From a virus: a DNA stretch of 49,695 nucleotides. The notes beneath the pieces were generated by a model, which saw nothing but the letters and a program-made list of their open reading frames with translations, had not been told where the DNA came from and did not search any database. The translations under genes and the position numbers were made by a program. Positions 1,803 to 36,600 of the stretch are shown here, one piece after another. Every line of letters begins with the position of its first letter. Position 1 is the stretch's first letter. Location: IMG/VR virus record IMGVR_UViG_3300037189_003791, positions 1 through 49,695 of that record; one strand, given 5' to 3'.

Positions 1803-2441
1803 TTATTGAATCTTGAGGTCCTTGATAAGACGAACCATTTCGTCTTTCAGGTATCTCTGAACTTTTTTGTCAGCACTTGCATCTTTTGCAATATCCAACA
1901 CACGATGACCATGACGCATGTTCATTAGTCCTTCGTAAATTGCTTTTGGATATGCATTAGGAGCACTAGGTTGTGCGACTACATCTACAGTGACAATTTC
2001 AAAGTCACTGACCTTACCAGTAATATCGTCAACGTTTCCGCTTCCTCTAGAACTGACACCTAATTTTACACCACTCTCTAACATGGTCGATATTAATTGA
2101 CCCATTGGAGTTGGTAATATTTTTAACTTTCCGAAACCATTAGGACCATCCATCCACATATTTGTAATCATGTGAGATACACGGTCTAGGTTGATTTTTA
2201 GATCATCGGGGTGATCGACTTCTCCTAATACGGAGTTGCCTTCCATTATTTGTTGATTGAGTTGTTCAACTGCGGATTCAATTTCATCAATGGGGTAAAC
2301 ACGTTCATTAGCGTTCTTTACCCCACCTTGAATGAAGATCCCTTTCATATAAAGGGACTTCTTATTTTCACCATCACTTACACTTTCGACCACTATATTA
2401 GCACGGTCGAAAGTTAAGTTTTCTCTTAGATACAAAGCCAT
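1803..2441 (-). CDS. 21: Prohead core protease gp21
   Basis: Serine protease of the T4 gp21 / herpesvirus assemblin-like class that processes capsid and core proteins inside the prohead. At 212 residues it has the family's usual length. The motif GEVDHPDD puts the candidate catalytic His at 77, and KLGVSSRGSG puts the candidate catalytic Ser at 130 or 131; both stand in the conserved family positions. The N-terminal part with KGIFIQGGVKNANERVYP is also characteristic. It lies between the acidic core protein and gp22 in the order expected for T4-like phages. The protease and its likely substrates (gp22, gp23 and the acidic core protein) are therefore in one operon. Confidence 0.93.
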   Translation of the reverse strand: MALYLRENLTFDRANIVVESVSDGENKKSLYMKGIFIQGGVKNANERVYPIDEIESAVEQLNQQIMEGNSVLGEVDHPDDLKINLDRVSHMITNMWMDGPNGFGKLKILPTPMGQLISTMLESGVKLGVSSRGSGNVDDITGKVSDFEIVTVDVVAQPSAPNAYPKAIYEGLMNMRHGHRVLDIAKDASADKKVQRYLKDEMVRLIKDLKIQ

Positions 2442-2459
2442 TTGCTCTTGGAGTTCCTA

Positions 2460-3314
2460 TTACTTAATACGCTTTTTAGCTGTTTTGCTTTCAGCTACTG
2501 GGCTTTTTGTATTAACACCAGTTGCTTGAGCTTTATGAGCCGCAGGCGCTTTGTCTAGTTTTTGTCCAGTTTGTGATGGAGCATTTTTCCACTCACCTGA
2601 ATGCTTAACTGTTGTTTCACCTTTTGAACCATAGTTACTTGGTGCTTTTGGTCCTGTTGGAACTGACTCTGGTGAACCTGAGAAGTTAACTGGATTTACG
2701 TTAGGGGCTTTAACTTTTGGTCCGCCTGTTAATGCTGTGCTTTTGGTGTTTGAACCATCATCACCGCCAATTTTTGAACCATATAAGCCTGGTACTTGCT
2801 TTAGTTGAATTGCTTCTTCTAAAGATTCAGTCATATCTTCTTCTTCATCATCATCTTCTTCGTCACCGAAATCTTCTTCGCCGCCCATTTCTTCATCGCC
2901 GAAATCTTCTTCGCCGCCCATTTCTTCATCGCCGAAATCTTCTTCGCCTTCATCATGACCCATAATTTCTTCAAACTCAGCCATTAACATGTCTAGTTTA
3001 TCTTCGATATCTACAACACGATCTTCTAGGTCTTCGATTTCTTCTTCTTCTGATTCTTCATCATGTGCTAGGCCTTCTTCTTCGTCATCCATTTCGATGT
3101 CGGCAAATTCGTCATCATCTTCTGACATGCCTTCTTCTTCATGACCGATTTCGTCCATTAGATCACCTACTTGACCGCCCATATTTTCATCCATCATTGA
3201 TTCATAGATTTCTCTTGATTTTTCAACTACGATGTCGTGGAATAATGCACGTGCTTGTTCTTCATTCTCATTGATAATTAGATCAATAAGTTGTTCAAAT
3301 TTTCTGTTATCCAT
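2460..3314 (-). CDS. Acidic prohead core protein (gp67/gp68 position)
   Basis: Likely internal prohead core component. The first 45 residues (FEQLIDLIINENEEQARALF, then a short helix) resemble the N-terminus of T4 gp67, a small acidic core peptide precursor. The gene sits in the 67/68 slot between gp20 and gp21. Residues about 45-165 are extremely acidic (runs of D and E), including an 11-residue unit EEDFGDEEMGG repeated in tandem. The C-terminal 110 residues turn basic and rich in G, P, T and K. At 284 residues it is far longer than T4 gp67 (about 80) and is probably a merged or expanded core protein. A strong Shine-Dalgarno AAGGAG precedes the ATG at 3314. Confidence 0.7.
   Translation of the reverse strand: MDNRKFEQLIDLIINENEEQARALFHDIVVEKSREIYESMMDENMGGQVGDLMDEIGHEEEGMSEDDDEFADIEMDDEEEGLAHDEESEEEEIEDLEDRVVDIEDKLDMLMAEFEEIMGHDEGEEDFGDEEMGGEEDFGDEEMGGEEDFGDEEDDDEEEDMTESLEEAIQLKQVPGLYGSKIGGDDGSNTKSTALTGGPKVKAPNVNPVNFSGSPESVPTGPKAPSNYGSKGETTVKHSGEWKNAPSQTGQKLDKAPAAHKAQATGVNTKSPVAESKTAKKRIK
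2866..2948 (-). repeat. 33-bp tandem repeat inside the acidic core gene
   Basis: A unit starting CCGAAATCTTCTTCGCCGCC on the plus strand recurs with a 33-bp period at 2866, 2899 and 2932; the third copy is partial. Each unit encodes 11 acidic residues. Because the period is a multiple of three, copy number can change without breaking the frame. The near identity of the units suggests recent slippage expansion. Confidence 0.85.
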
Positions 3315-3350
3315 TATTAAATTCTCCTTTTGAAATGGCTCTGTAATAAT

Positions 3351-3358
3351 TATTTAGT
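3351..3358 (-). promoter_or_regulatory. Candidate late promoter box for the core-protease-capsid operon
   Basis: Minus-strand CTAAATAAT, one or two changes from the T4 late consensus TATAAATA, lies about 37 bp before the ATG of the acidic core gene and just downstream (minus sense) of the terminator-like hairpin at 3367-3389. The arrangement suggests that a new late transcript starts here. It is weaker than the NATAAATA boxes elsewhere in the window. Confidence 0.4.
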
Positions 3359-3366
3359 GGGTAGTT

Positions 3367-3397
3367 GAAAAAACAGCACATTAAGTGCTATTTTTTT
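3367..3397. terminator. Bidirectional intrinsic terminator
   Basis: AGCAC (3375-3379), loop ATTAA and GTGCT (3385-3389) form a 5-bp stem. It is flanked by six A's and then by seven T's on the plus strand, so either strand reads stem-loop followed by a T-run. On the minus strand it follows the small basic gene and precedes the acidic core gene. It would end the portal transcript before the core-capsid operon. The stem is short, but both U-tracts are good. Confidence 0.65.
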
Positions 3398-3422
3398 GCG
3401 TTTTTTGAAAAGATATGCTTTT

Positions 3423-3644
3423 TTAGACACCAGGAGCAGCTGGTGGCGGCATATATTGTTTACGGACTTGTTTTAAGTTCTTTGCTCTTTCAAAACTACG
3501 TACATCAAACATCTTACGTAGCTTACGAATTTGTCTTAATGTTAGTTTGGTTTTACGGGATTCTCTCCATTTAGGTTGACTGTTGTCATCTGCAACATCC
3601 TGTAATCCTTCAATTGGCTTGTCAAACATTTCAAAAAGTTTCAT
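3423..3644 (-). CDS. Small basic protein between portal and prohead core
   Basis: A 73-residue basic protein of unknown role. Its core, KLTLRQIRKLRKMFDVRSFE, followed by a Pro-rich tail (YMPPPAAPGV), resembles small conserved proteins found at the same place, between gp20 and the core gene, in other marine T4-like phages; this is from memory and was not searched. It may be a head assembly or core-associated factor. The start codon lies 18 bp after the gp20 stop. There is no Shine-Dalgarno sequence; instead the late-type box GATAAATA stands 7 nt before the ATG. Overlapping plus-strand frames look like shadows. Confidence 0.65.
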   Translation of the reverse strand: MKLFEMFDKPIEGLQDVADDNSQPKWRESRKTKLTLRQIRKLRKMFDVRSFERAKNLKQVRKQYMPPPAAPGV

Positions 3645-3662: not shown

Positions 3663-5444
3663 TTACATGCCAACTCCGCCAGGGGCAGGAGCTCCACCAC
3701 CGCCGGTCATTGCACCTGGTCCTTGTACCGGAGGAACTACTTCAGTAGGACCACCTGGTTGTTCAGGGGGTTGTTCCATAGTTTCTGCAGTTTGCAAATC
3801 AGTGTCTATGTCACCGGAGCTAATACCAATACTACGTAAATCTCCACCTGTGATATCCTCATCTACATCTTTATCACGTTCTTCTTTCCATAGCTTTTCG
3901 TTTTCTGCAATTTCTTCTTCAGTCAATCCTAAGAATCGCTGTAGAGCAAAACGCTTACTAATATATGGAAAAGCTTCCATTGATGCAAATGTAGTGACAC
4001 GGTCTTTGTCTAATTCACTTTGACGATATGCTGCAAAGTTCTGAGGTGCATTGAATTTAATATCAAAAATACCAGAATCAATATTGAATCCGCGCCATCT
4101 TAAGAATAGTTTGAATTCATCATCTAGCTTTTGACTGATATAATTCTGTAGTCTTTCGCAATATTGATTGAATCTAAACTCTTGTATCATTGCTGTACCA
4201 ACACGACCATCATTTAATGGTACTTGTCCATCTTCTGGACCTGTCGGTAAATAGCTACTTGGCACACGCAAACCACGTGCTAACCTGTTATTAAAGTATT
4301 TTAAATCGTCAATTTCACCAAGGTTTTGTCCACCTTGTAACAAGTCAACTGAGCTACCTCTACCGTCTGCAGTTACAGGGAAGAAGTAATCTTCATTGAT
4401 ACTTAATGGGTTATATGTAGCATCCAGTGTGCCACTGCCTCCACCAGTTGTTGGAATCCTACGTTGATGTATTTCATTTTTAACTCTATCAACGAAAGCC
4501 ATAGCCATATGACTTGGCATGTTACCTACGTCAATTTTAAATACTCTACGTTCCGGCGCACGACTTATGCGATAGATTAGAATAGCATCTTCAAGCAATT
4601 CTTTTTGCTTGTAGACTTTAAATATATTCTCTAAAATACTTTGTCCAAAGGGCCAATAACGATCTAAACCCTCTGTTAAACTTAAATGAATAACATGTTT
4701 AGCATCAACTGCTGCTTCATTTAATCCTAAAGTAAATCTGCTTCCTGTAGTACCATATGGTTCATTAGGAACTGTATAGCTATAAGGCGCACTATAACCT
4801 GCTGTTGGAGGCTGTGCTGCAAAATCATTGGTAGTTTTTGCTGCTACTGTTAAATTCTGTAGATTGGGATTAATATCTTTAAGTACATATTGCTCAGGCT
4901 TCTTTCCTTCGCTTTCATTTACAATGACCTTAGTTACTTTGGTCATATCTACCCAATATAGTTTAAAGTTTTCTGGATCACGAATGAATACTTGATCTCC
5001 GTATTTGATACAGTTACGGAAGATTTTGAAAACTCTAGTCTCAAATTCGTTTAATTTACACCATTGTTGAAGTTGTTTCTTAAGCAATTCTACTTCATGA
5101 GGAGTAGGATCCTCTTTAAATTCTAAGTTAAATGGTGTATTATTGTGTTCATTTTTCTGTGTGCTGAACTCTGCAATAATGTCTAAACATGCATTAATTT
5201 CAGCATCTACATCCATCATTTCATATTGATTGTAACGTTCTACACGATTAGGATGCCCTGTATATACTTCAGGTAATCTACTTTGATAATTTTTGTATCC
5301 AAAATCAGTATTGTAACCGCCACCTGTTTCGGTTTTGTTCATTCCGGCACCACTGTTCCAGGCACCATAGTTACTATTGTTGCCTGAGATAGGACTCATT
5401 TGCCCAGTTGTGTTCGGGGCTGAAAAACGCTTTTTATATGACAT
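3663..5444 (-). CDS. 20: Portal vertex protein gp20
   Basis: Forms the dodecameric portal through which DNA enters and leaves the head and on which the prohead is initiated. The 593 residues include the hallmark stretch YWPFGQSILENIFKVYKQKE followed by LLEDAILIYRISRAPERRVF, and the later RVPSSYLPTG and GRVGTAMIQEFRFNQYCERL, all typical of gp20. Length is close to T4 gp20 (524), with a longer Pro/Gly-rich C-terminal tail (last 60 residues). The start at 5444 lacks a Shine-Dalgarno sequence and is preceded 6 nt upstream by CATAAATA, so it may be translated from a leaderless late mRNA. Confidence 0.97.
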   Translation of the reverse strand: MSYKKRFSAPNTTGQMSPISGNNSNYGAWNSGAGMNKTETGGGYNTDFGYKNYQSRLPEVYTGHPNRVERYNQYEMMDVDAEINACLDIIAEFSTQKNEHNNTPFNLEFKEDPTPHEVELLKKQLQQWCKLNEFETRVFKIFRNCIKYGDQVFIRDPENFKLYWVDMTKVTKVIVNESEGKKPEQYVLKDINPNLQNLTVAAKTTNDFAAQPPTAGYSAPYSYTVPNEPYGTTGSRFTLGLNEAAVDAKHVIHLSLTEGLDRYWPFGQSILENIFKVYKQKELLEDAILIYRISRAPERRVFKIDVGNMPSHMAMAFVDRVKNEIHQRRIPTTGGGSGTLDATYNPLSINEDYFFPVTADGRGSSVDLLQGGQNLGEIDDLKYFNNRLARGLRVPSSYLPTGPEDGQVPLNDGRVGTAMIQEFRFNQYCERLQNYISQKLDDEFKLFLRWRGFNIDSGIFDIKFNAPQNFAAYRQSELDKDRVTTFASMEAFPYISKRFALQRFLGLTEEEIAENEKLWKEERDKDVDEDITGGDLRSIGISSGDIDTDLQTAETMEQPPEQPGGPTEVVPPVQGPGAMTGGGGAPAPGGVGM

Positions 5445-5459: not shown

Positions 5460-7979
5460 TTAATTGTGGGCATATAGTTTTATGTCACTATATATTCGGT
5501 TACTTTCTTCTACCTTTGTATTCAAATCATCTAGTTTAGCTAGTAATATATCAGTAAATAAAGTATCAGTAGACTGTTGTTCTGCTGCTTGTACAGGAGC
5601 CGATGAGCCAAATGAACTAGAACTATTAGAACCTAACTCTAATTTACCATCAGTAAAGCCACTTAAACTCTTGTTGTTCATATCTATAGAAATAGTACCG
5701 TTTGTTAAAGGGATTTTTGCTTCAGTGCCATGAAGTAACGCAGCATAGCCTGAATTAGGTCCATCAAACATTCCACCCAGTTTAGCTTTTGGTACAACGT
5801 GAACCGGGTCTCTATCTTTGTGTGGTCTATGTAATCCAAATTCTTCTAGTATACCTTTTGATTCTAAAAAGTCTAACTGTGCTGCATCAATATCAACTGC
5901 TTTACCTTTACTGTGTGCGCTACCACCTGCACTTGGCATATAGTAACCACCTGCAAATGGTTTATCTTTACTTCCGCCTGCTTTAACCCATGCTTTATAT
6001 ATTGCTTCTTGTTCTTCCTGTGAACGATATGAACTGTTTATCGATAGTCTTTTTCCACCGGATAAGTTATAATATCTTTCTGCTAGTGCTGAAACAGTAG
6101 AACCAAATGCAGGATCTAGTTGACCAAAATGTTTTGCATCATTTGAATTACCAGCTTTAAATTCAAGGAAGCTACCTGAAACTTCTGCAGCACCTCCACT
6201 AATTGATTGTTTTCTTTTTTTATTTTTTTCTCTTTCCTGTGTTCTAGCTTGACGGTCTAGTAATTCCTGTCGTTTCTGTTCAAGTGTTAGTGTGTCAGTT
6301 CCGTATTTTGCTTTTTCATTTTTACGTTGTTCTTGTAGTGCTTTATCAGCAGCAATAACATCAGCATCCGCTTTCTTTTTTTCTTCTGGACTTTTAGCTG
6401 CTTTCTTAGCTTGCATAGCTTTATCATATGCATCTTTAGCAGCTTTAGTCTTTGCACCTTCATCTCGTTGCATTGAAATTTGTTTGTCGGTTTCAGTTAA
6501 GCTTTTCTTTATAGCTTGATTTACTCCCTTAATATCTTTGTCATCACCTAATATAGCCAATGCAGCTTCTAGTTCTTTATTTGTTCCACCAGATAACCAA
6601 TTACCTAATTTAATAGCACCTATAGCAGTTTGTTTTACTAAATCTGCTAAAGTTCTGAATACAAAGTTAACTGGACCACTAACAACTCCCATAGTTTTCT
6701 CATAGGTTATTGCAGATTGGCGCTCTGTCTTAGCAGCATCAATCTGTGTTTCTTTTAATCCTGATTTTATTTTACCATCACTATCTTTTTGTTTCTTTGC
6801 AAGGTCAATTTGTGCCTGAACATCAACCATATTCTGTACATTTGCTAATTTTTCAGCACCTTCTAACCTTTTTACTGACATGCCAGTTTGTTCTTGATAA
6901 TCTTTGCTTATCTGTAGTGATTTTCTATTAGCTTTCTCATAATCTGTTGTTGCGTTTGCTATGCGTTTATTAAACTCTACTCCGTCAATTTGACCACTTT
7001 CTAATTGTGCAACCCATAAACCAATTTCACCCTTAGTTGTAGCCATTAAAGCTTCACCTTCTTTGGTTGTTGCTACTCCATTAGAAAGGAAATCACGAAC
7101 AGCCGCTGCAGTTTGTGGACCCATTAGAGCTGCACTAATAGTCGATGCATCTTTAAAGTTTTTAATTGCTTTGTCGTTACCGGCTCTGTTTAATTCTCTT
7201 AGTTTTAAATTAAATTTCAAATCATTTGCTTGAGCAGCCATTTGATCAGCTAATTCATCTACATTATGTCCAGTTATAACTGATAAGCCAATTAATGAAG
7301 TAGCATAATCTAAAGAACTTTGTCTTGTGTTTTTTGCACCCTTTTCTAAACCAAAACCCAATGTCTCTTGCATTTTAATATATTTGGTTTGCATCATTCT
7401 CAAGCTATCTTGATTCTGACCTAACCTCATAAACTCATCAACTACCCCATCAGTTTTTGTTATCTGTGATAACTCATCAATACCAACTGATGTTGTTTTT
7501 CCTAAGTTTATTAATCCTGTATTTGAATCTTCGATTGATTTTAAAAATGATTCATTGCTTTTTACTGAAGTATTTGATTCATGCGTTATAGTAGATAACT
7601 TCTCAGCAGTAGTTCCGGCAGCAATACCAAACTTTGATACTCTATCAAACGCAGTTAACTGTAAATCATTCTGCTCGAACACCATTTCTGTTAACGTACT
7701 GATAGTTCGAATTATGCTGCCTATTGCACCGCCTACACCAGGTATACTTCTAGAAGCATTATCTAAAAATTTACTAGTATAATCAATTGATTTTTCAAAT
7801 TTTGCAAATTTATCATTTGCATCATAAAAAGCAGAACCAGTAGCTGATGCTGCTCTAGTAAAATCTAAATAGGCACTAGTAATCTTAGAGGCAGCGGCTT
7901 TACCTTGGGCAGTAGATTTACTAAAATCTTCTATGCCCTTACCAATATCATCTACTGAATCACTAATATTATCAGCCAT
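5460..7979 (-). CDS. Tape-measure-like tail protein with C-terminal M15 peptidase domain
   Basis: An 839-residue tail protein. Residues about 1-580 are helical and Ala/Lys/Ser-rich with hydrophobic segments near 80-105, and align loosely with the neighbouring gene at 7983-10118 (for example SIPGVGGAIGSIIRTISTLT here and NIPIFGGVLGGLIKVVGSLT there). Residues about 620-730 form an M15/VanY-type zinc peptidase domain: SxHxxGxAxD with H689 and D696, then DPVHV with H727, the expected metal ligands. Such domains cut peptide bonds in peptidoglycan, so local wall opening during DNA injection is the likely role. It ends with GGMFDGPNSGYAALLHGTEA, a C-terminal motif seen in many tape measure proteins. 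An AAAGG stands before the start. Confidence 0.75.
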   Translation of the reverse strand: MADNISDSVDDIGKGIEDFSKSTAQGKAAASKITSAYLDFTRAASATGSAFYDANDKFAKFEKSIDYTSKFLDNASRSIPGVGGAIGSIIRTISTLTEMVFEQNDLQLTAFDRVSKFGIAAGTTAEKLSTITHESNTSVKSNESFLKSIEDSNTGLINLGKTTSVGIDELSQITKTDGVVDEFMRLGQNQDSLRMMQTKYIKMQETLGFGLEKGAKNTRQSSLDYATSLIGLSVITGHNVDELADQMAAQANDLKFNLKLRELNRAGNDKAIKNFKDASTISAALMGPQTAAAVRDFLSNGVATTKEGEALMATTKGEIGLWVAQLESGQIDGVEFNKRIANATTDYEKANRKSLQISKDYQEQTGMSVKRLEGAEKLANVQNMVDVQAQIDLAKKQKDSDGKIKSGLKETQIDAAKTERQSAITYEKTMGVVSGPVNFVFRTLADLVKQTAIGAIKLGNWLSGGTNKELEAALAILGDDKDIKGVNQAIKKSLTETDKQISMQRDEGAKTKAAKDAYDKAMQAKKAAKSPEEKKKADADVIAADKALQEQRKNEKAKYGTDTLTLEQKRQELLDRQARTQEREKNKKRKQSISGGAAEVSGSFLEFKAGNSNDAKHFGQLDPAFGSTVSALAERYYNLSGGKRLSINSSYRSQEEQEAIYKAWVKAGGSKDKPFAGGYYMPSAGGSAHSKGKAVDIDAAQLDFLESKGILEEFGLHRPHKDRDPVHVVPKAKLGGMFDGPNSGYAALLHGTEAKIPLTNGTISIDMNNKSLSGFTDGKLELGSNSSSSFGSSAPVQAAEQQSTDTLFTDILLAKLDDLNTKVEESNRIYSDIKLYAHN

Positions 7980-7982
7980 TAA

Positions 7983-10118
7983 TTACCTTTTCATATACTG
8001 TAGTAAATCATCTTGTAAATCGTTATTAGTTTTCATATTTTGCAATAACTCATCTAATTTATCACTAACCATTGACACTAAGCTATCTGATAATCCACTT
8101 GAATTTTCTTGATTAACTGAAATCTGATTCAAAACATTAGTAGTATCTTTAGTCAAGGATGACATATATCCTTTTATTATCTCTGCTATTCCTGAATCAT
8201 CTGTTAATGGATTATTTTGTTTTTGTAATAGTTGACTAGGCATATTCTTAAATGATACCGGTATAGATGTACCATCTGGTAAGGGCACTACTGCTTCGTT
8301 GCCACTCATTGCGGACATGAATCCTGAATCAGGACCAGAAAATACTCCGGGTTGCATCATACCCTTTATCTTACTAATATCACCATCACCTACACCGCTA
8401 TTTTTTGCATCAGGTGCTTCTGAAGATTTAGATGATGGGGCAACAACTGGGCCCTTATTTTCTGATTTCTCTAAATTTTTTATTTGATTTTGAATTCCGT
8501 TTAACTCAAGTTTCAATCCCCTAATTTCAGCATTTGATATAACTTCCTCTGTTACATTACCTAAGTCATCAACATGTGTAACTACAGTTTTTTTATTTGG
8601 GTTAAGTTCCAATTCTGCTAGTTTTTTCTTCTTACTAGTTTCTAACTCTTTCAATTGAGCCATGTCTTTAAACATGTACGGAACTTCAGGACTAAATGCA
8701 CCTAAATTAGTTAAGACACGGGTGAACCCTTCAGTCAATAGGTCTAGCCCTTTTAATAATCCTCTGAATGCACTATTAACAGGCCCTGATAACAGTTCAG
8801 TTAATGTGTCGTATGCAGTGCCTAATGCTATCTGTGTTTCTACTGCTTTACCTTGTGTGGCTTTTAAATCACCTTCTTTAGGTACAGTAGCCTCTGCTAT
8901 TTGTTTATCTACTAGACCTTCTACTTTTTCATTGCGTGTTTTTGCAGATCCAGCCGTAGTCTGTACAGATAAATTAAATGCTGCTGCTAAATCGCTATTA
9001 GCTCTTGCTGCACCACCTAAACTTTTTTCAGTATTCGTAGTAGCTTCAGCTAGTTTTTGTTGTAACTCTTCCGCGGTCATCTTACCATCTTTGAACTGCT
9101 GACTCCAATCCTTAATAGCACCACCGCTTTGACGCATTAATGCAACAGCTTCTGGACCTTGTGCATTACCTGTACTTAATATTTCCATAAAGGCTTTAGC
9201 AGTACTATCACCAAATACAGCACCAACTTTTTCTACACCATCATCAATACGTGCTGCTGCATCTGCACTCTGTTTAGATTCAACTTCTCTGAGATAAGAA
9301 TTATATGCATAATCCTTCAATCTTTCATTTTTTGAATTTTCAATTTGGTCTACACTCTTACCAGTTAAGGCACTTAGTTTAACTAAGCTTTTTGTATATT
9401 TTATTGATTCATCTTTTAATGTGTCAGTACCTTTGTTCTGTAAATTACCTAACCTACCTTGCATCTTAATATATTCTGCTTGATGTTTGGTTAATTCTTC
9501 CTGACTTATACCCAATCTACGGAATTCATCACGTGTGTCTGCACCAACTTCTGCTATCTTAAAGAAACTCTTTGCACCTTCACCTGCAGTCTTGCCCAAC
9601 CCAACTAAGTTATCACCCAATCCTGTTGTGATTTTGGTTAATTTAGCAACTGCATCTCTTGTATATCCTGTTCCTTCAGTTAATTCATGTAAACTGTCTG
9701 CAACATCAGTTCCGGCAAAACCAAATTGACTTAACTGGTCATATGAATCAAGATATGCCTGGTCATACTTTAATGTAGATGATGTTAGACTACCTACTAC
9801 TTTAATTAACCCGCCTAAAACACCGCCAAATATTGGTATGTTGGTTGCTAGTCCCGCAATACCATCGGTCATGCGGTCTATACTAGATGTGTATTTGGTT
9901 AATGTACGGTCACTTTTATATACTGCAGACCCAAACTCAATTGCACCGGACGATAGTTTGTCTAATGCAGTTTGCTTGTCGTACATCTTTTCTGCGGAGC
10001 TATTTAATGAGTCCGAAAACCCTTTCATAGCATTAGTGCCCGTAGCACTGCTACGTGACAGTTGTTCTGCAGCGTCAGCTAATCTTCGTATTTCAGTCTG
10101 TAGTTCTTGTTCGGTCAA
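7983..10118 (-). CDS. Tape-measure-like tail protein (paralogue without peptidase)
   Basis: A 711-residue helical tail protein, probably a tape measure, which fixes tail length and fills the tube. It shares layout and local sequence with the gene downstream, including YIKMQ plus G-rich segments near residue 215 and the C-terminal GPDSGFMSAMSGNEAVVPLP motif of tape measures. It lacks the M15 domain. The start is a TTG at 10118: no ATG lies between it and the in-frame TAG upstream, and GGAG is placed 9 nt before it. It abuts the next gene with 3 nt between stop and start. It is transcribed divergently from gp26/gp51, the likely tape-measure chaperones. T4 has one such protein (gp29), so the pair is unusual. 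Confidence 0.75.
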   Translation of the reverse strand: MTEQELQTEIRRLADAAEQLSRSSATGTNAMKGFSDSLNSSAEKMYDKQTALDKLSSGAIEFGSAVYKSDRTLTKYTSSIDRMTDGIAGLATNIPIFGGVLGGLIKVVGSLTSSTLKYDQAYLDSYDQLSQFGFAGTDVADSLHELTEGTGYTRDAVAKLTKITTGLGDNLVGLGKTAGEGAKSFFKIAEVGADTRDEFRRLGISQEELTKHQAEYIKMQGRLGNLQNKGTDTLKDESIKYTKSLVKLSALTGKSVDQIENSKNERLKDYAYNSYLREVESKQSADAAARIDDGVEKVGAVFGDSTAKAFMEILSTGNAQGPEAVALMRQSGGAIKDWSQQFKDGKMTAEELQQKLAEATTNTEKSLGGAARANSDLAAAFNLSVQTTAGSAKTRNEKVEGLVDKQIAEATVPKEGDLKATQGKAVETQIALGTAYDTLTELLSGPVNSAFRGLLKGLDLLTEGFTRVLTNLGAFSPEVPYMFKDMAQLKELETSKKKKLAELELNPNKKTVVTHVDDLGNVTEEVISNAEIRGLKLELNGIQNQIKNLEKSENKGPVVAPSSKSSEAPDAKNSGVGDGDISKIKGMMQPGVFSGPDSGFMSAMSGNEAVVPLPDGTSIPVSFKNMPSQLLQKQNNPLTDDSGIAEIIKGYMSSLTKDTTNVLNQISVNQENSSGLSDSLVSMVSDKLDELLQNMKTNNDLQDDLLQYMKR

Positions 10119-10145
10119 GGAATTTATCTCCGCGGGTTTAGGTGT

Positions 10146-10152
10146 CTAAATA
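10146..10152 (+). promoter_or_regulatory. Late promoter box for gp26-gp51
   Basis: Plus-strand CTAAATA, 49 bp before the gp26 ATG. It forms a perfect inverted repeat with the minus-strand box at 10161-10167 (CTAAATA, 8-nt spacer, TATTTAG). The gp26 leader then carries AGGAG 7-11 nt before the ATG. Confidence 0.5.
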
Positions 10153-10160
10153 TCAAATAG

Positions 10161-10167
10161 TATTTAG
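10161..10167 (-). promoter_or_regulatory. Late promoter box for the tape-measure-like genes
   Basis: Minus-strand CTAAATAC, 42 bp before the TTG start at 10118. It is the other half of the inverted repeat with 10146-10152. The two predicted transcripts would start inside each other's promoter, so occupancy of one box should affect the other. Confidence 0.5.
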
Positions 10168-10200
10168 TGGTTATAGAAACCCCAATTTTAGGAGATATGA

Positions 10201-11031
10201 ATGGCAATAGAAAACAATCCGCTCAAGCAGTACTTTCGCAGACCTAGCATTTATTTGAAATTACCCAGCAAAGGAGTAGGATACGATACTGATGTATTAG
10301 TAATGACTGAAACCGGAGAACTACCAGTATATCCAATGACTGCTATTGATGAGATTTCTAGTAAAACCCCAGACAGTTTATACAACGGTTCCGCTGTAGT
10401 TGATATCATTAAAAGTTGTGTACCAAACATCAAAAATCCATGGAAAATCAGTAGCACAGATTTAGATGCCATTTTAGTTGCTGTTAGAATTGCAACAAAC
10501 GGTAATGAAATGGATATCGAAACTACATGTCCTAGCTGTAGTGAAGAATTAAAGTACGGCATCAACCTAAGTTTTATATTGAATAACTTCAGACCCGGTG
10601 ACTATGATAAGCCTATGGAGTTAGCTGAAATGAAATTCAAGTTTAGACCATTGAATTATAAAGAATTAACTGAAAGTGGTACAAGACAGTTTGAAATTCA
10701 AAAGACAATGGCCATGATTAATAATATGCCTGACGGTGATGAACGTGAAAAGAAATCCGGAGAATTATTAAAAACAATTACTGTTAGTACATTAGAAGTA
10801 TTGGCAAGTACAATTGAATCTATACAGATTCCTGATACAATTGTAACAGAAAAAGCATATATTATCGATTTTCTACAAAACTGTGATAAACGAATCTTTG
10901 AAGCAATTAAGGATAAAAGTGTATCACTTCGTGAAACTACTCAATTAAAACCATTGCAGATTAAATGTACTGCGTGTGAACATGAGTACGACCAAACATT
11001 CACATTGAATGTAAGCGATTTTTTCGACTAA
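10201..11031 (+). CDS. 26: Baseplate hub / tape-measure chaperone gp26
   Basis: T4 gp26 family, classically a baseplate hub assembly protein; with gp51 it is a plausible chaperone of the tape measure. The 276 residues show the family N-terminus (RRPSIYLKLPSKG, YPMTAIDEISSKTPDSLYNG) and two CxxC pairs (C110/C113 and C256/C259) that look like a split zinc-ribbon. Start ATG 10201 has AGGAG upstream. The last codons, GAT TTT TTC GAC TAA, contain the slippery heptamer T TTT TTC. The -1 frame is open from 10986 and continues into gp51, so part of the product may be extended to 351 residues. It is longer than T4 gp26 (208 residues). Confidence 0.9.
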   Translation: MAIENNPLKQYFRRPSIYLKLPSKGVGYDTDVLVMTETGELPVYPMTAIDEISSKTPDSLYNGSAVVDIIKSCVPNIKNPWKISSTDLDAILVAVRIATNGNEMDIETTCPSCSEELKYGINLSFILNNFRPGDYDKPMELAEMKFKFRPLNYKELTESGTRQFEIQKTMAMINNMPDGDEREKKSGELLKTITVSTLEVLASTIESIQIPDTIVTEKAYIIDFLQNCDKRIFEAIKDKSVSLRETTQLKPLQIKCTACEHEYDQTFTLNVSDFFD

Positions 11032-11069
11032 AGCTTCTATACCTTGACTCCGAAGGTATAATGAAGCTT
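11019..11069 (+). promoter_or_regulatory. Programmed -1 frameshift element joining gp26 to gp51
   Basis: Slippery heptamer T TTT TTC at 11019-11025, in the correct phase with gp26 codons TTT TTC; spacer GACTA (11026-11030); then a stem-loop. AAGCTTC (11031-11037) pairs with GAAGCTT (11063-11069), and TATACCTT (11038-11045) pairs with AAGGTATA (11053-11060), with loop GACTCCG and a 2-nt bulge at 11061-11062: 15 base pairs in all. After a -1 slip the frame reads CGA CTA AAG and runs without a stop into gp51, adding 76 residues. The hairpin also hides the gp51 AUG and its GAAGG, so translational coupling at the gp26 stop is an alternative or an addition. Confidence 0.75.
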
Positions 11070-11255
11070 ATTGATTCTATGGAGAAGGATACCAAAGCTA
11101 TTAAAAAGAATGCACAAAGAATAGCTTGGTATATGCGCGGCGGTATATCTTACACTGATGTATTGAATATGAGTCCAGATGAAATACGTGCAGCCAATGA
11201 AATCATAGAAGAAAATTTAGAAACAACAAAGAAATCAAATATACCATTCTTCTAA
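11061..11255 (+). CDS. 51: Baseplate hub assembly protein gp51 (may be made as a gp26-51 fusion)
   Basis: A 64-residue protein of the short gp51 type found in marine T4-like phages; core RIAWYMRGGISYTDVLNMSP and tail NLETTKKSNIPFF. T4 gp51 acts in hub assembly. Its own start could be the ATG at 11061 (GAAGG 4 nt upstream, buried in the frameshift stem-loop) or the in-frame ATG at 11079. It begins 29 bp after the gp26 stop in the -1 frame relative to gp26, and that frame is open back through the slippery site, so the biologically relevant product may be a 351-residue gp26-51 fusion, like lambda G-T. No T-run terminator follows directly. Confidence 0.8.
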   Translation: MKLIDSMEKDTKAIKKNAQRIAWYMRGGISYTDVLNMSPDEIRAANEIIEENLETTKKSNIPFF

Positions 11256-11719
11256 GGGTTAGTTTAAAGATGAACTTCGTTCATCTACCTTCAGAAATAT
11301 TCACTACGTTCATATTTCTTCGGTTAAGTTTAAGATTAGATTTTAATTTTATTTGTATTAAGACTAGTATGCCGATTAGAAGCCATGGTAGTGCTATTCA
11401 GCACTACCAAAAAATTAACGTCTGCCATGACTGTCATCCATTGTTGTCTATTCCCCGACTATCTAGCCCTTTTAGCTGATATTCGCCACCGGTTGCTCTG
11501 TAAGGTTTAATGGGACTGTAGTTTGAAGCAATGCTTCAGCAACGCATGTTACATAGTTTCAAGACAAAATACACTATGTACTCATTCAGGGTTCGCTCCA
11601 CACGAGAGCCCTGTCGGTGTTCCCTAATATTAATATTAGGTATACTCTAGTATCTATCGGCAACGAGCCTTACCTCGGCTGACTCAAAGAGGATCGAGGA
11701 ACCTCGATCAAACAAATTT
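11256..11719. ncRNA. Noncoding hairpin-rich region, candidate structured RNA
   Basis: A 464-bp gap between convergent genes with no plausible coding frame. Counted by hand, 11401-11700 is about 44% G+C, against about one third in the flanking genes; structured RNAs in AT-rich genomes show this. Perfect or near-perfect stems: 11269-11285 (7 bp), 11294-11318 (7 bp), 11387-11408 (9 bp, tetraloop ATTC), 11524-11538 (6 bp), 11550-11580 (8 bp), 11587-11613 (5 bp extended with wobble), 11623-11640 (an 18-nt perfect palindrome) and 11692-11709 (8 bp). TGCCGAT at 11370-11376 could pair with ATCGGCA at 11656-11662 and close a 293-nt domain. Strand and promoter are unclear. It may instead only separate two converging operons. 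Confidence 0.45.
11692..11709. terminator. Strong inverted repeat, possible terminator of the nuclease operon
   Basis: GATCGAGG, AA, CCTCGATC: an 8-bp G+C-containing stem 10 bp beyond the stop codon of the nuclease gene read on the minus strand. No good T-run follows on that strand (CCTCTTTG), so intrinsic termination is uncertain. On the plus strand a short T-run (TTTTT) appears only after 7-8 nt. Confidence 0.35.
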
Positions 11720-12277
11720 TTATACTGCTATTGAAATTATATTATCGGGAATTGACGTTGTGTCTATTAATAGGCCTGAATATGCTTTAAGAAGGTCTTT
11801 GTTTTGCTTCATAAATGAATCGAATTCTATAAAACACCAGTCACCGTGTTTTTTACTTCCATAAAATAAGAAGTTATCAGTGACCCATGTATGTTTGCAT
11901 TGTACTGCTACAAAGCGACCTTTGCGATTAAACTTCATAAACAAGATGTTCATATCGTTTGGGTCAGCTACATCCATCAATTGTTCTAACCAGCTATCTA
12001 ATACTTTGTGTTCGCCAGTGAATAACAAATGAAATGCAAAATCTCCATAGAACTTACATTCAGCATTGAATTTTGGAAAGCTTTGTCCGGGTACTATATC
12101 CCCTTTAAAGCTGCGAATCTGTCCCTCATGTAATATTTGGGTTCGACTCTGATTTTTGCCACCTACATAAGCACCAGAACCAGGTGCACGTATGAAACTT
12201 TCTCCGTACAAATCGCTGAGATATTTAGCAATTTCTCTCTCAAATCCTGATCCTTTGTTCTTCTGTGGTGATGGCAT
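11720..12277 (-). CDS. PD-(D/E)XK-type nuclease, Holliday-junction-resolvase-like
   Basis: A 185-residue putative DNA nuclease. The N-terminal KGSGFEREIAKYL supplies a conserved Glu (E14), RAPGSGAYVGG is a Gly-rich turn, SFKGDIVP gives the Asp of the PD motif (about residue 60) and NAECKFY gives the E-x-K pair (about 73-75). This E...D...ExK arrangement is that of archaeal Hjc-like resolvases and related PD-(D/E)XK enzymes. It lies 34 bp behind gp46 on the same strand, so it is probably cotranscribed with the gp46/gp47 recombination nuclease and may act in recombination or branch resolution before packaging. T4 uses the unrelated gp49 for resolution. The exact substrate is not shown by the sequence. 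Confidence 0.65.
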   Translation of the reverse strand: MPSPQKNKGSGFEREIAKYLSDLYGESFIRAPGSGAYVGGKNQSRTQILHEGQIRSFKGDIVPGQSFPKFNAECKFYGDFAFHLLFTGEHKVLDSWLEQLMDVADPNDMNILFMKFNRKGRFVAVQCKHTWVTDNFLFYGSKKHGDWCFIEFDSFMKQNKDLLKAYSGLLIDTTSIPDNIISIAV

Positions 12278-27687: not shown

Positions 27688-30600
27688 ATGGTAACAAAAG
27701 TTAGAACATTAGATTTTCTTCCTGACATATTTAAAACAGTTCCGAATCAAGCCTTTTTAAGTGCTACTTTGGATCAACTTGTCCAACAACCTGACACGCA
27801 AAAAATTCAAGGTTATATTGGAAGAAAATTTGAATATGGCATAACTCCTAGTAGTTATTATGTAACTGAGCCAAATAAAACACGTTCAAATTATCAATTA
27901 GAACCTGCAATTATTTTTACACAAAAAGATACTAGTAAAGCTACTGATTTTATTACCTATCCTGAAATCATTGACGCATTACGTGTTGAAGGCTCACCAG
28001 TAAATAACAATTCAAATTTATTTGCAAATGAATTTTATAGTTGGGATAGTTTCACAGACTTAGACAAGCTAACTAACTTTAGCCAATACTATTGGTTGCC
28101 TACTGGTCCTGATTCAGTTGAAGTTAGACCAACAGCTATTCCTGTTTCAAGTGTATATACACTAACATCATATATCCATTATTATCAATTTACTAAAGAT
28201 AATGAATTAATACCAGAAATAAACCCCACAATTACGTTAGCCAGAGGCGGTGAATACTATTTTGGTGTTGATCAAAAGACAGATTTTTATATACAAACTA
28301 TGCCCGGAATAAACGGCATAGACCCTCAACGTAACAACGTAAGCACACGTGAAGTATTTGGTGTTTCTAATAATGGTCAATCTAAGGGTGTTGTAACTTT
28401 TAAAGTCCCTTATGCAAATGCTCAATCGGGTGATGTTTATGAAGGATTAGTTAAAGTAGATTTAGTAACTACCCTTGCATTCAATGATATTGATGGTAGA
28501 CGTTTAAGTGAGATAGGCACCATTGACGGTGTTAATCAACTATTAGATAGAACATTAATGTTCTATGGCGATAAAAATAGCAAGTATGTTAATGTTGATA
28601 GTTTTTATGATTTTACTTCATACGACCAATCTCAACCAGTAGAGGTTGGGTTTGATCAGACTATCCCACTACAGCTTAATGATTTCTTTTACAGAATAGT
28701 ATATGAAAGTTTAGACATACCCAATGATCCTATTATAAGATTGGAAAGCGCAGGTACTATTCCAATTAATACTAATATTCAGGTATTAATCGGTAAAGAT
28801 TATTCAAACAAAAAGTTTGTTAAAAATGTATACGGTGAGATAGCACTTATCCCTCAGATTACTGCACCGTTGGATACATTATATTATCAGGATTCAGTTG
28901 ACCCTTTACGATTTGGTGTAATTAAATTAATAGATTTAGAGACAGATAATTATCTTAATATAGAAAATGAAATTTTAGGCAAAATTGGATATACATCACC
29001 TAACAATGTTAAATTTACAAATGGATTAAAAGTTAACTTTGCGGGTAATGTAATTCCGGCTTCGTTCAAAGGTAAAGATTATTATGTTGATGGTGTAGGA
29101 TCAAAAATAGTTTTACTTCCTGTAAATGAGTTTGTAGTACCTGAACCATTTAGTACAGGAATCTATACTGCATATGATGCAGCACCATATGATCTTACTG
29201 TATATTCAGATATATTAGAAACACCTACGATTCCCGATTATATTACTATAAGCAGAAATAGTCGTAGCAGAAATCCATGGACAAGAAGTAATCGTTGGTT
29301 TCATAAAGATGTAATACAAGAGACCATTAATCATACTAGTAGTTCTGTTTTATTGAGCATTATAAACAATGAAACTAATAGAGCAAAACGCCCTATTATA
29401 GAATTTTATCCCAACATTAAATTATATAATTCAGGTACAGATAGCAAACAACCAATTGATTTCATAGATTTTGTAGAAACTAATGGCTTAGCAAATGTTG
29501 CAGGACGTGAACTTGTTGTTACCACTGGTATTAACGGTGGTACTAATGCTATTCAAGTAAATGATACATCTACTATGACTGCAGGTCAGGCAATAAGTTT
29601 TACCGGAGACATGTTCACATCATTAGGTGTAGTCACAGTTGATGCAAATGTAATATATTATGTTAAAGAAATTCTCTCAGGAACTGATTTTACTATTAGC
29701 GAAACCTTAGGAGGACCGGTATTTGACGTTGCAACATCTATTACTCCAGTAACAATCATTCCTTACTGCGTAGATGGTAAGGCAGTATTTGACGGTGCAA
29801 AAGTAGTATTTGCAGTTGATAGTAATATTGATGCTAGAGATAAAATTTATATAGTTAAATTTGTTACCCTACATGGTGGAACAAGATATTATATAACACT
29901 TACTAAAGCTCCAGACGGAGATGTGCAATACAATGATCAAACTGTAGTTTTATTTGGTAACACAGCTAAAGGTAAAAGTTTTTACTATGATGGATCCAAT
30001 TGGATAGAGGCACAATCAAAAACATTAGTTAATCAACCACCGTTGTTTGATGTGTATGATAAGAACGGTACTAGTTTTGGTGATCAGACTTATTATAATA
30101 GTAGCGATTTTACAGGTATTACTTTATTTCAATATGCAGTTGGTACAGGTAATGATGATCCTGTATTGGGCTTTCCGTTAAAATATAGTTCAGTTAATAA
30201 TGTAGGAGATATATCATTTGAGGTAAGTCTAAATACACAATCATTTCATTATGTACTAAATGGCTTGCCTGTAACAGAAGCAGTTAATGAAGGATATCCT
30301 ATCATATACAGTGATAGATCCACTTATGAAAATCAATTAGGTTGGCAAACTGCGGCTAGTCCAAGCTTTCAATATCAAGCATTTGAATTTACTTATTATC
30401 CAGCAAACAACAACACTTTCTTTGTATGTGATGTTCCGGTAAAACCTGTTAATGAAACTGCATGGCCAGTAATTCGTGTTACTATGGGTGAAACAGTATT
30501 AGATAGCACGATGTACACCTATACAGTAACAGGCAGTACAACTACAGTAACATTTGCATCAACACCTTTGGTGGAAATCCCTGTACAAATATTAATTTAC

Positions 30601-33600
30601 AGTGATAAAGTAAGTGCAACTGCATACTATGTAATTCCTACTAACCTTGAAAATAATATATTCAATAATGAAGTATCAACTTTAAATTTAGGTGATATCA
30701 GAAATCATTTTCAAACTATATTTTTAAACAGTGAAAAATTAACTGGTAGTGCATTTGGAGCAAACAATTACAGAGATGTTCCTAACTTATTGCGTTATGG
30801 TACAAAGATCATTCAAAACAGTGCGCCATTAACTATTGCAGGTGCATTATTAAGAAACAAAAGTTTTAGTCTACTAGAATCATTGTCATTTAATTCTAAT
30901 GAATATGTAAAATTTAAATCATTATTAATTGATACTATTAATAAAACAGACTATACAGTATACCAATCAGATGCATCTATATTAGATGATGCATTGAGCC
31001 AAATTTCTTCATACAAAACAGATGTCAATGCATTCTTTTGGTCAGACATGTTACCAAGCAGAAGCTCATATATTTCAAACACATATAAGTTTTCTACCTT
31101 TGTAGATACTACTAATTTTCAATTAAGTAGAATTTATGATTTTTCTTCTGCGAATTATTATGGTGTTTTGATTTATTTAAGTAGAACAGTTGATGGTGTG
31201 CCTAGAACAATTCAACTAGTTAAAGATATAGATTATCAAATCAGTAGTACAGAAGCGCAAGTAACTATATTCACCGATTTAATTCCTAATGATTTAATTA
31301 TTATTAATGAATATAATCAGACTTATGGAAGCTTTGTACCAAACACTCCTAGTAAATTAGGATTCTATCCTATATCTGTTCCTGAAGTCGTATACGATGA
31401 AACCTACATTTCTCCTGCTTATTTCATAAAAGGACATGACGGGTCATATACTAAATTATACGGTGATTATATTGATGGATATTTAGTTGATTTTAGAGAT
31501 AGAGCCTTATATGAATTTGAATTAAGAGTTTATAATAATATTAAAGTAAAAGCAAAGATTCCTGTTACTGCAGATGAAGTTATACCTGGACAATTTAGAA
31601 CTACTAATTTCACATATGATGAAATTTTAGGATTATATTCTACCTATTTCTTAAATTGGATTGGTAAAAATAGAATTGATTATAAATCACAGTATTATTC
31701 TATGAATAATCCCTATACTTATAACTATAATCAATCAGCCAACAAATTAGATAATACTCAAATAAATCAGGGCAACTGGCGTGGAATGTATAATTGGTTC
31801 TTTGATACTACAACCCCTAATTTAACACCTTGGGAAATGATTGGTCATGCAAACAAACCAAGTTGGTGGGATGCAAGGTATGGTGCGTCACCATACACTA
31901 GTGACAATATGTTGCTATGGCAAGATATGGAAGCAGGCATTGACTACAATAATGGTAGTCCGTTTGTTAATCCTGCACGTGTAAGACCAGGACTATCAAA
32001 AGTATTACCAGTAGATAGCATGGGTAATCTAGTAGATCCTATGAACAGTGTTGTTGGTAATTATGATAATTTAACCTTCAATCGTGATTGGAGAGTAGGT
32101 GATTGGGGTCCAGCAGAATACAGTTACATTAAGAGTAGCACATATCCATTTGACTTAATTAAATTATTAGCATTATGCAAACCTGCAAAGTTTTTTGCGT
32201 TAGGTGAAGACTTAGACCATTACAAATTTAATACAGAGTTTAATCAATATCTGTATGATAATAGATTTAGATTCTCTACAGTTAATGCTGTAAAATATGG
32301 TAGTGGAGTAGCGCAACATAGTTACTTAGACTGGGTTGTTGATTATATTCAAAGTTCAGGTAATACTGGATATGACGTATTAACCAACATCTTAACTAAT
32401 TTAGATGTTAGACTTGTTTATAGAATGGCAGGCTTTAGTGATAAAGACTTGTTAAAATTTTATGTAGACAAAGGAACACCTAATAGCAAGAATAATTCAT
32501 TGTTGATTCCTGATGAAAGTTACTCAGTAATATTGCACGAGAATCAACCATTCGACACAGTAACATATAGCTCAGTTATCGTACAAAAAACTGACACTGG
32601 TTATAAGGTGTTTGGTAATTCTCAAAATAAAATTTATTTCACTACATATACTCCGTTACTTAATGGCAAGTATGACAAATTAACTGTAGGCGGGGAAACA
32701 GTTACAGTTACAAAAGACTATATTAAAAAAGAATTAATAATTCCGTATAACACAGAATTTCCTACAATACAAGCACTATCAGAATTTTTATCTAACTATG
32801 GAAAATACTTAACAGATCATGGATTTGTCTTTGATGTTATTGATAGAGGCATTTTAGTAGACTGGAATTCAATGATTAAGGAAGTATTGTACTGGACCCA
32901 ATCAGGTTGGGAAGTTGGCGCAATTATAAATCTTAATCCTGCAGCTAAACGTATTGTTATCAATAAAGAAAGCAGTATTGTTCAACCACTAACACTACAA
33001 GATCAAAATTATATTTTGAATCAGGATTTGATCCCTATTCAAATAAAAGATATGAACGTAAACAGAAACGGTACAGAGTTTTCTGCTGACATATTAAACG
33101 AAAATGACACAGCATCCTACTTCATTGCTAATTTAAGTAATATTGAACATGCAATCGTTTTTGATAACACAACATTATTCAATGATTTGATTTATGATCC
33201 TAACACCGGACTACGTCAATATAGAATATTAGTTAAGGGTGTAAAAACTGCTGAGTGGACAGGTACAATGGACACTAAAGGATTCATTCTTAATCAAGAC
33301 AATATACAAGAATGGCAAGCCAATAGTAGATATTCTAAGGGCGTTATCATTAAGTACAAAAATGTATATTGGGCTGCTGATGATATAATTCAACCAGCAT
33401 CTACATTCCAACAAGCATTGTGGAAACGTGTAGATTATGAAAAAATTCAAAAAGGGTTATTGCCTAATGCAAGCAGTAGAGCATATGAAAGTACATTATA
33501 CTATGATTCAAACTCTGCAAACTTAGAAAGTGATGCAGATTTATTGGGCTTCTCTATAATTGGATACAGACCAAGAAACTATCTAGCTGCTGCTAACTTA

Positions 33601-36600
33601 GATGATATATCACAAGTCAACCTGTATAAGACAATGGTTGTTGAAAAAGGTAGCAAGAATGCTGTTTCAGCAATTCAAAACATAACCCTACAAACAGGTG
33701 GAATACAATACGAAACATATGAAAATTGGGCTATTAATGTGGGTCAATATGGTGGTATACTCAATCAAAACTTCATTGAGTTTACATTAAATCAAAATCA
33801 ACTAAGTGGTAATCCGGCTATAATTGGTATTACTAAAGACACTGAAGTACCAGGAGCTACACAAATAGTTCCATTGAATGCATTAACAAATTACGGCAGA
33901 AGTATCACTGATGCAAACATTCTACCTTTATTAGATCCTGCAACAACTAATAAATTGCCTAGTGCAGGCTATGTCAATTTTAATGATGTTAGAATGTATT
34001 CCTATACTTACTTAGGATTAAACAATACTACACTACCAGTTGACCAACTTAATAAAAATGAATATATTTGGGTAGCTGATTATAAAAATGAATGGCAGGT
34101 TTACACACCTGAAGCAATAACATTTGCCGGTAGTCCGTCACAAGTTATTAATATTACTAACAATTTAAATTCTACTGCTACAGTAACATTTGATAATCCG
34201 CATGGTTTAGTAAAAGATGATTTATTCATAATTCAAAACTATAGTGATTTACTAGATGGATTCTACATAGTTAATCAAGTTGGTAGTATAACAACAGTAG
34301 TGGTAGATATATCACTTAGTGCTACTGCGCAAACTTCCACCCAAAGTGTTGGTTTAGCGGCTAAAATGATTAGCGCAAGAATAACAGAAAGCAATGATAT
34401 AATTAACACTGATTTCTTAAATTCTGAATTTGTAACAAGTAAATTATGGGTAGATCAAGCAGTAAACGGTGGCTGGGCAGTTTATAAGAAAACATTAAAC
34501 TACCAAAGAACTAATTTTGTTGATAAGCCAGAAGTTACTGTTTCATTTGGTTCAGCAGTTGCATACGATACTAAATTGGGTTATTTTATTTCTGATGCTG
34601 ATGACGGTAAGTTATACAGATACACATATTCTGTTGTGTCGCAGGATTATAGTTTAGTAGATACAATTTCTGTTTCAACTGGTTATGGTTCAGCTATTGC
34701 TCATTCAAATGATATGATGGCTGTAACTTTGCCGGGCTCAACTAGTTACGTGTACATTTATTCATTAGAGCAAACCAAAAACATTGAAGCGGTGGTACAA
34801 CAACAAATAATTACAATTACAGGCAAAATTGCAGGTTACAAGATAGCAATGTCCGGTGATAAGAAATATCTATTTGTTCCGGCAACTAATAATGCGCAAG
34901 TATTAGTTTATAGATTAGACAATAATTACACATACACTAGCACAGGATATGCAACTAATGCCAATATAGCTATCGGAGATCAAACATTCACCATCGCAGG
35001 AAATCATACTGCTATCTATAACGAAGGTGACAAGGTTACTTTTGCAAATACAAACGGAACAACTGTTTACAAATTCATTAAAGCATATTATGATTCTGCA
35101 AACTCACAAACAGTCTATTCTATTGAAGGAAACTTCTCGGAGAATATTTCTTCAGGAACAACCGCATATAAAGCAACATACCGCTATACTAGTGTAGGAA
35201 CAGTTTCTGTGGGAGGATTGGGTTCGTCTGACAACTTTGGTTACAGTTTATCAACAAATTATGACGGTACTAAATTATTTGTAGGTGCACCAAATCAAGA
35301 TTATAGTTTTAATTACACAGATGAAGGATATGCCTACATATTTAATCGTGTAGTTCAGAATTTTTATCAATCATATGCTAGTTTAACAGATGCATCCACT
35401 ACATATACATTAGCATATGCAGCTACAAACACACCAGTTGTTCTTCTAAATGAAGAAGTAGTTGATCCAACAAATTATACTGTTTATACCAGCGCAATCG
35501 ACACATATGGCTCGTTAGTTGCTGGATCAGGGTATACTAACGGACAATACTCAATTGCACTAACTAATCTAACAGGTAGTGGCACAGGAGCAGTTGCTCA
35601 AATTACAGTAAGTGGTGGTGCAGTTACTAATCTTTGGTTAAGAAATAGAGGATCAGGATATGCAATCGGTAATGAATTGACTGCTGCTTTACCTGCAGGA
35701 TCAAGCTTCAAAATTACTGTTACTGCAATCAAAAATCTACTAACATTAAACGTTCCTGTTAATGCGGGTGACATTGTAACATTCAGTTCAGGTGACTTTA
35801 TTCAATCACAGACCTTAGTTGGACATGACATTATTGCTAATCCAAAAGTAGGTGTATTATTTGGTCGTAGCATGAGTAATAATACAAGCGGTAATGAATT
35901 AATTATTGGTGCTCCATATGATGTAACTAACACAGGTATTGAGGGTAGTGTGTATCGTTTCACAAATGAAGCGCAGAAATACGGAATGATTAAGGGTACA
36001 ACTACAGTTACGTTAGCATCACCTACATCAATATTGATTAACGGTTACGCAGTAACATTGCCAGTAGGAATTGATAATATAATCAGTACTATCAACAATG
36101 CAATATTACCTAATATTCAAGCAAGTAAAACAACTGACAACAAATTAATTATTAGCTTAATTGATGCTACCTTAAGTCCATCTAACAACAAATTGAACAT
36201 AACAGTATTTGATTCGGCTGTATATGGGTATTTAGGTTTCAATTTATATACAAAAACACAAGTTTTACACGATATTAATCAACAAAATGCAACTCAGTTT
36301 GGTTATGAATTAAAGTTCAACGAATATAATTCATTTGTTGTAAGTTCATTGGTGGGTACACGTTATAGCTTAACATCATTTGACTTTACTGATGACGGTA
36401 ATTATACAAATGATACTATATTTGATAATAATTTTACTATGTTTGTGGACACATTACCAAATGCAGGTTGTGCCTATATGTATGATTACATTCCTACTTA
36501 TAACGAGAATATAGACAGTGTTGGGCAATTTGTACTAGCACAGACAGTGAATGATGTTATTACTGACATAGGTAATACTGAATACTACGGGGAAACAATT

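Follow-up and report, generated by a model that had tools for sequence, protein, structure and literature searches.

A conserved -1 frameshift signal in a gp26-like gene of T4-like jumbo phages and related viruses predicts short and long forms of a tail-assembly chaperone

Introduction

In phage lambda, the tail-assembly chaperones gpG and gpG-T are produced by a -1 slip of the ribosome on GGGAAAG, near the end of the first open reading frame (ORF) and near the genes that determine tail length. For T4-like phages, a 2022 study by Vladimirov et al. reportedly named T4 genes 26 and 51 and is said to have found frameshifting kept in several groups.

The T4-like tail-assembly chaperones (TACs) treated in that study (Vladimirov, Gautam & Davidson 2022, Virology 566:9-15, as cited in PMC12846349 and PMC10885494) are described by the first of these citing papers as carrying known poly-T slip sites in TAC-N genes, and the second states that some T4-like phages have one short and one long gene in place of frameshifting. 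T4 gp26 and gp51 appear among the hub assembly chaperones given in PMC3004832, where gp51 is also described as needed for tail assembly and absent from the particle. In phage Adele (Vandenendeviridae / Andersonviridae), the -1 frame is open for more than 200 nt after TAC-N and the poly-T motif is invariant (PMC12846349). A frameshifted T4-like chaperone is thus already known in general terms, and the locus described here is a well-supported further case. The original prediction of a frameshift at this locus knew of no such description for gp26/gp51; T4-like chaperone frameshifting had nevertheless been reported in 2022 according to the papers that cite that report.

Results

A slip site and stem-loop at the end of a gp26-like gene

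The window, that is, the whole stretch of viral DNA analyzed here (49,695 nt; IMG/VR record IMGVR_UViG_3300037189_003791), contains a gp26-like gene that ends in GAT TTT TTC GAC TAA, with T TTT TTC in the X XXY YYZ phase and the stop two codons on. The features of this junction are:

10201..11031, + strand: gp26-like 0-frame gene, predicted short form (TAC-N), 276 aa (PF12322; phrog_150)
11019..11025, + strand: slippery heptamer T TTT TTC in the gp26 phase (identical in 62/62 relatives)
11026..11030, + strand: 5-nt spacer, GACTA (from sequence and fold)
11029..11031, + strand: gp26 0-frame stop codon, TAA (from sequence and ORF list)
11031..11069, + strand: putative stimulatory stem-loop, 7+8 bp, 7-nt loop, 2-nt bulge (from fold, codon-preserving null and covariation)
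11025..11252, + strand: -1-frame extension, 76 codons (TAC-C), homologous to the T4 gp51 C-terminal domain (also modeled with AlphaFold2)
11253-11255, + strand: stop codon of the -1-frame extension
11061..11255, + strand: ATG-initiated small ORF, 64 aa, which a gene caller would report separately (ATG unconserved among relatives)

The stem-loop, which begins 5 nt 3' of the heptamer, belongs to the minimum-energy structure predicted by folding. Its outer stem (AAGCTTC/GAAGCTT) pairs 11031-11037 with 11063-11069, its inner stem (TATACCTT/AAGGTATA) pairs 11038-11045 with 11053-11060, and the bulge comprises 11061-11062. No stop interrupts the -1 frame between 10986 and 11252, and conceptual translation across the slip gives a fusion product of 351 residues with the junction peptide FFRLKLLYLDSEG. 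The original prediction had the heptamer, phase, spacer, stem-loop and open -1 frame correct to the base, and translation across the slip reproduced its fusion length. T TTT TTC occurs in phase only twice in the ~15,600 ORF codons of the window, and near a stop codon only here.

Conservation of the slip site among relatives

Using the 0-frame protein as the query, we fetched 59 viral contigs and 62 phage records. Relatives were retrieved either by six peptide patterns, which exclude the Phe-Phe site, or by tblastn of the 0-frame protein, and 62 of them, comprising 57 uncultured viral contigs and five jumbo phages (Phosso, Atu_ph07, GAP32, 121Q and RaK2), reach across the junction. Every one of the 62 has an in-phase T TTT TTC close to the gp26 stop, at gp26 identities to the window protein down to ~27%; all keep the 0-frame stop, and in all of them the -1 frame is open for 194-239 nt past it. 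Across 41 distinct sequences, each of the seven heptamer columns is 100% conserved. Elsewhere in these genes, Phe is encoded 293 times by TTT and 150 times by TTC, from which TTT-TTC would be expected for ~22% of Phe-Phe pairs. Phe-Phe is preceded by D, H, N, S, T or R, whose codon always ends in T. Occurrence of the heptamer by chance is ruled out by its presence in 62/62 relatives together with its rarity in the ORFs of the window.

The heptamer followed by an open -1 frame was also found in the cyanophages S-SM2 and DSL-LC02, Aeromonas phage phiAS5, Salicola phage SCTP-2, Vibrio phage 2.275, PA5oct and XbC2, and Stenotrophomonas phage RAS14 has T TTT TTT A. Pseudomonas phage Cygsa01 (L070, positions 2572-3482) is without T TTT TTC, and its 0-frame stop overlaps the ATG of the extension (TAATG); some T4-like phages may have swapped frameshifting for stop-start coupling. 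In Klebsiella phage phi1_146002 (L077, positions 2001-3294), a gp51-like and a gp26-like gene stand in tandem on one strand with a 14-nt overlap, whereas the two T4 genes are divergent.

Selection on the stem-loop

As a null model for the folding of the 50 nt 3' of the heptamer, we recoded the same -1-frame peptide at random with synonymous codons. The natural sequence folds better than its recodings in 46 of 47 distinct junctions, with a mean z of -3.8; z lies below -2 in 37 of the 47 and is -5.8 in the window. Compensatory pair changes (G-C to A-U, C-G to U-A, U-A to C-G and others) are present among 39 aligned sequences, for which the covariation score was reached by none of 500 shuffles and slid pairings score lower. 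The original prediction had proposed such an alignment as a check; the heptamer and its phase are kept and the stem shows compensatory changes. Nearly every sequence has the outer stem, and the inner stem occurs in a bulged or a continuous register; because this register shifts by 2 nt between groups, RNAalifold retains 6 outer pairs only. For the relative L019, the L056/L057 group and the jumbo phages GAP32, 121Q and RaK2 (L062-L064), a simple hairpin is weak. Judged from these sequence comparisons, the stem-loop is evidently under selection. Searches of the window against Rfam families gave no match, and a reading of the structure as a terminator was rejected, no terminator-like site having been found in 10000-11800.

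Coding selection on the -1 frame and alternative readings of the junction

The first -1 codon encodes Arg in 47/47 distinct junctions, by way of CGA, CGG, CGT or CGC, and the 0-frame residue opposite this invariant Arg varies (G, E, V, D or A). Over the first 12 codons of the extension, the synonymous share of single-base codon differences is 57% in the -1 frame, against 29% and 17% in the 0 and +1 frames, respectively. These patterns point firmly to protein-coding selection on the -1 frame from the first codon after the slip. No start codon in the extension is shared among relatives: the first ATG falls at extension codon 2, 3, 12, 13, 15, 16, 19, 31, 33 or 37, or is absent, and the extensions of three relatives (L056, L057 and L059) have no Met at all. 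The missing shared start and the Met-less extensions are thus evidence against a separately started small protein, and a separate small gene beginning at ATG 11061 was rejected on the ground that this start codon is unconserved.

The same observations bear on translational coupling, in which the stem-loop would mask ATG 11061 together with its ribosome-binding site until a ribosome terminating on gp26 opened the stem and restarted, so that two separate proteins were made. GAAGG precedes this ATG, both are enclosed in the stem-loop, and the stem directly adjoins the gp26 stop; moreover, the TAATG overlap in Cygsa01, which has no heptamer, indicates that such a route may exist in some relatives. 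Nevertheless, we consider coupling improbable here: the first ATGs are scattered or absent among relatives, the stretch that precedes any start evolves as -1-frame protein from its first codon, and the invariant T TTT TTC is left unexplained. Less probable still is transcriptional slippage, a process used by some phage and bacterial genes, in which RNA polymerase would slip on the six-T run and mRNAs of altered length would join the two frames. The site is indeed a T run; a run of six T is short for this process. Transcriptional slippage needs no downstream hairpin, whereas a phased heptamer ending in C, followed 5 nt on by a conserved and covarying hairpin, fits slippage by the ribosome. Finally, the chance that an assembly or sequencing error cut one gene in two is negligible even though a homopolymer adjoins the frame change, this explanation being refuted by the agreement of the relatives, 62 of which, including complete phage genomes, share the heptamer, phase and 0-frame stop.

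As originally predicted, -1 programmed ribosomal frameshifting at T TTT TTC is very well supported as the putative mechanism, by the conserved heptamer, its phase, the open -1 frame and the hairpin.

Identity of the two products

The gp26-like protein of the window matches PF12322 ('T4_baseplate', E 1.9e-18) and phrog_150 ('baseplate hub'). T4 gp26 and gp51 are paralogues that both match PF12322 over the full model, gp51 with residues 1-201 and ~48 more residues beyond the shared domain; their genes lie on opposite strands and are divergently transcribed. T4 makes both forms from these paralogous genes, the short form from 26 and the long form from 51.

The downstream ORF had originally been called gp51, an assignment that does not hold: at 64-76 aa it is too short compared with the 249 aa of gp51, it does not match PF12322, and T4 gene 51 is divergent from gene 26. 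The presence of a full gp51 homologue downstream of the slip was rejected as well, the only match being to the gp51 C-terminal domain. For the window extension, hhalign gave this match a probability of 87.5% (E 3.6e-6) over 31 columns only, with E 0.23 or worse for column-shuffled control profiles, and the extensions of two cyanophages and two other T4-like phages reached 97.6%. Since no other part of gp51 is matched by the extension, gp51 corresponds to the whole fusion and the piece read after the slip to the gp51 C-terminal domain alone, and the gene pair would accordingly represent a short and a long tail-assembly chaperone. The same naming slip, by which the C-terminal piece is called as gp51, is found in cyanophage annotation, where the small ORF after gp26 in S-SM2 matches phrog_634 ('baseplate hub assembly catalyst'). 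The 64-aa ORF of the window gave weak, uninformative matches only against PHROG. The extension is annotated as a hypothetical protein of its own in the records of 121Q (L063, positions 3828-4037) and GAP32 (L062, positions 3867-4043) and has no entry in those of RaK2 (L064) and PA5oct (L073).

The gp26-like short form has invariant Cys residues at 110, 113, 256 and 259, along with the invariant Phe-Phe at 274-275; the two CxxC pairs (110/113 and 256/259) suggest a zinc ribbon that joins the middle and the end of the protein. When the short form and the extension were predicted as separate chains with AlphaFold2, both models were confident, with pLDDT 86 for the short form and 88 for the helical domain of the extension. 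Fold searches of the PDB with both models gave no match at E <= 0.001, and profile searches of PDB sequences gave designed-protein matches only, with E above 0.1; a structural link to the lambda G/T or HK97 chaperones was likewise not recovered, no solved structure having matched. Among the BFVD predicted viral structures that match the fold, those with names are mostly baseplate hub, hub assembly and uncharacterised phage proteins.

Tape-measure-like neighbors

Two genes read away from the gp26-like gene on the opposite strand:

7983..10118, - strand: tape-measure-like gene, 711 aa, divergent, candidate client (30% identical to the next gene)
5460..7979, - strand: 839-aa tape-measure-like paralogue that carries a VanY-type peptidase domain (from profile match and paralogy)

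The identity between the two extends over 438 aa (E 2e-45), and the 711-aa gene has no Pfam or PHROG family match; both are putative tape measures. Weak tape-measure matches were obtained in cyanophage S-SM2 for the next large gene that shares the strand of the gp26-like gene. Farther along the window, 27688-44079 (+ strand) is occupied by a single 5463-aa ORF, unusually long for a phage gene.

Discussion

We place at about 0.92 the probability that the gp26-like gene is a tail-assembly chaperone gene read two ways by means of a -1 slip. Most ribosomes would terminate at 11029-11031, yielding the 276-aa short form (TAC-N), while a minority would pause at the stem-loop (11031-11069) with Phe-tRNAs on T TTT TTC. 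Both Phe-tRNAs would then slip back one base and reading would continue in the -1 frame to 11252, yielding a 351-aa long form (TAC-NC) with the helical 76-aa domain at its C-terminus. The slip is supported by sequence comparison; that it takes place in cells, and at what rate, we infer. The two forms would coat and hand over one or both tape-measure proteins in the manner of lambda G and G-T, the rate and the putative chaperone role in this phage being drawn from T4 gp26/gp51 and the lambda model. The lambda analogy of the original prediction, a short and a long tail-assembly chaperone, is likewise supported.

The chaperone gene of the window is divergent from the tape-measure-like genes, whereas a classical frameshifted TAC gene lies just upstream of its tape-measure gene on the same strand. 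A speculative and rather unlikely extension concerns the jumbo-related clade: a single frameshifted chaperone gene would there work for both of the paralogous, divergently transcribed tape-measure-like proteins, one of them with a peptidase domain, so that tape-measure expression would have no part in setting the proportion of short to long form; this arrangement would differ from the classical one, in which the chaperone gene precedes a single tape-measure gene.

The frameshift corrects the annotation of a gene pair that is split or missed in public records, and the jumbo T4-like phages offer a clean comparison between one slipping gene and the two paralogous genes of T4. To the literature the locus adds breadth, a stem-loop that is conserved and covaries, and a divergent gene arrangement that is unusual.

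The closest described systems resemble this locus to different degrees. The T4-like chaperones of Vladimirov et al. (2022), as described in papers that cite that work, likewise belong to PF12322, occur in short and long forms and, in some groups, use a poly-T -1 slip. Phage Adele is comparable in its described motif and frame, although the TAC motif there is GTTTTT in place of T TTT TTC. Lambda G/G-T likewise yields a short and a long product by a -1 slip near the end of the first ORF, but with another heptamer and another protein family, the strong conserved stem-loop being a feature of the window. T4 itself provides the nearest proteins, with gp26 and gp51 in the same Pfam family as the gp26-like protein and a gp51 C-terminal domain that matches the extension; in T4, however, the two forms come from two opposite-strand genes and no slip is used, the near-terminal Phe-Phe of gp26 being encoded as TTC TTT and followed by gene 25.
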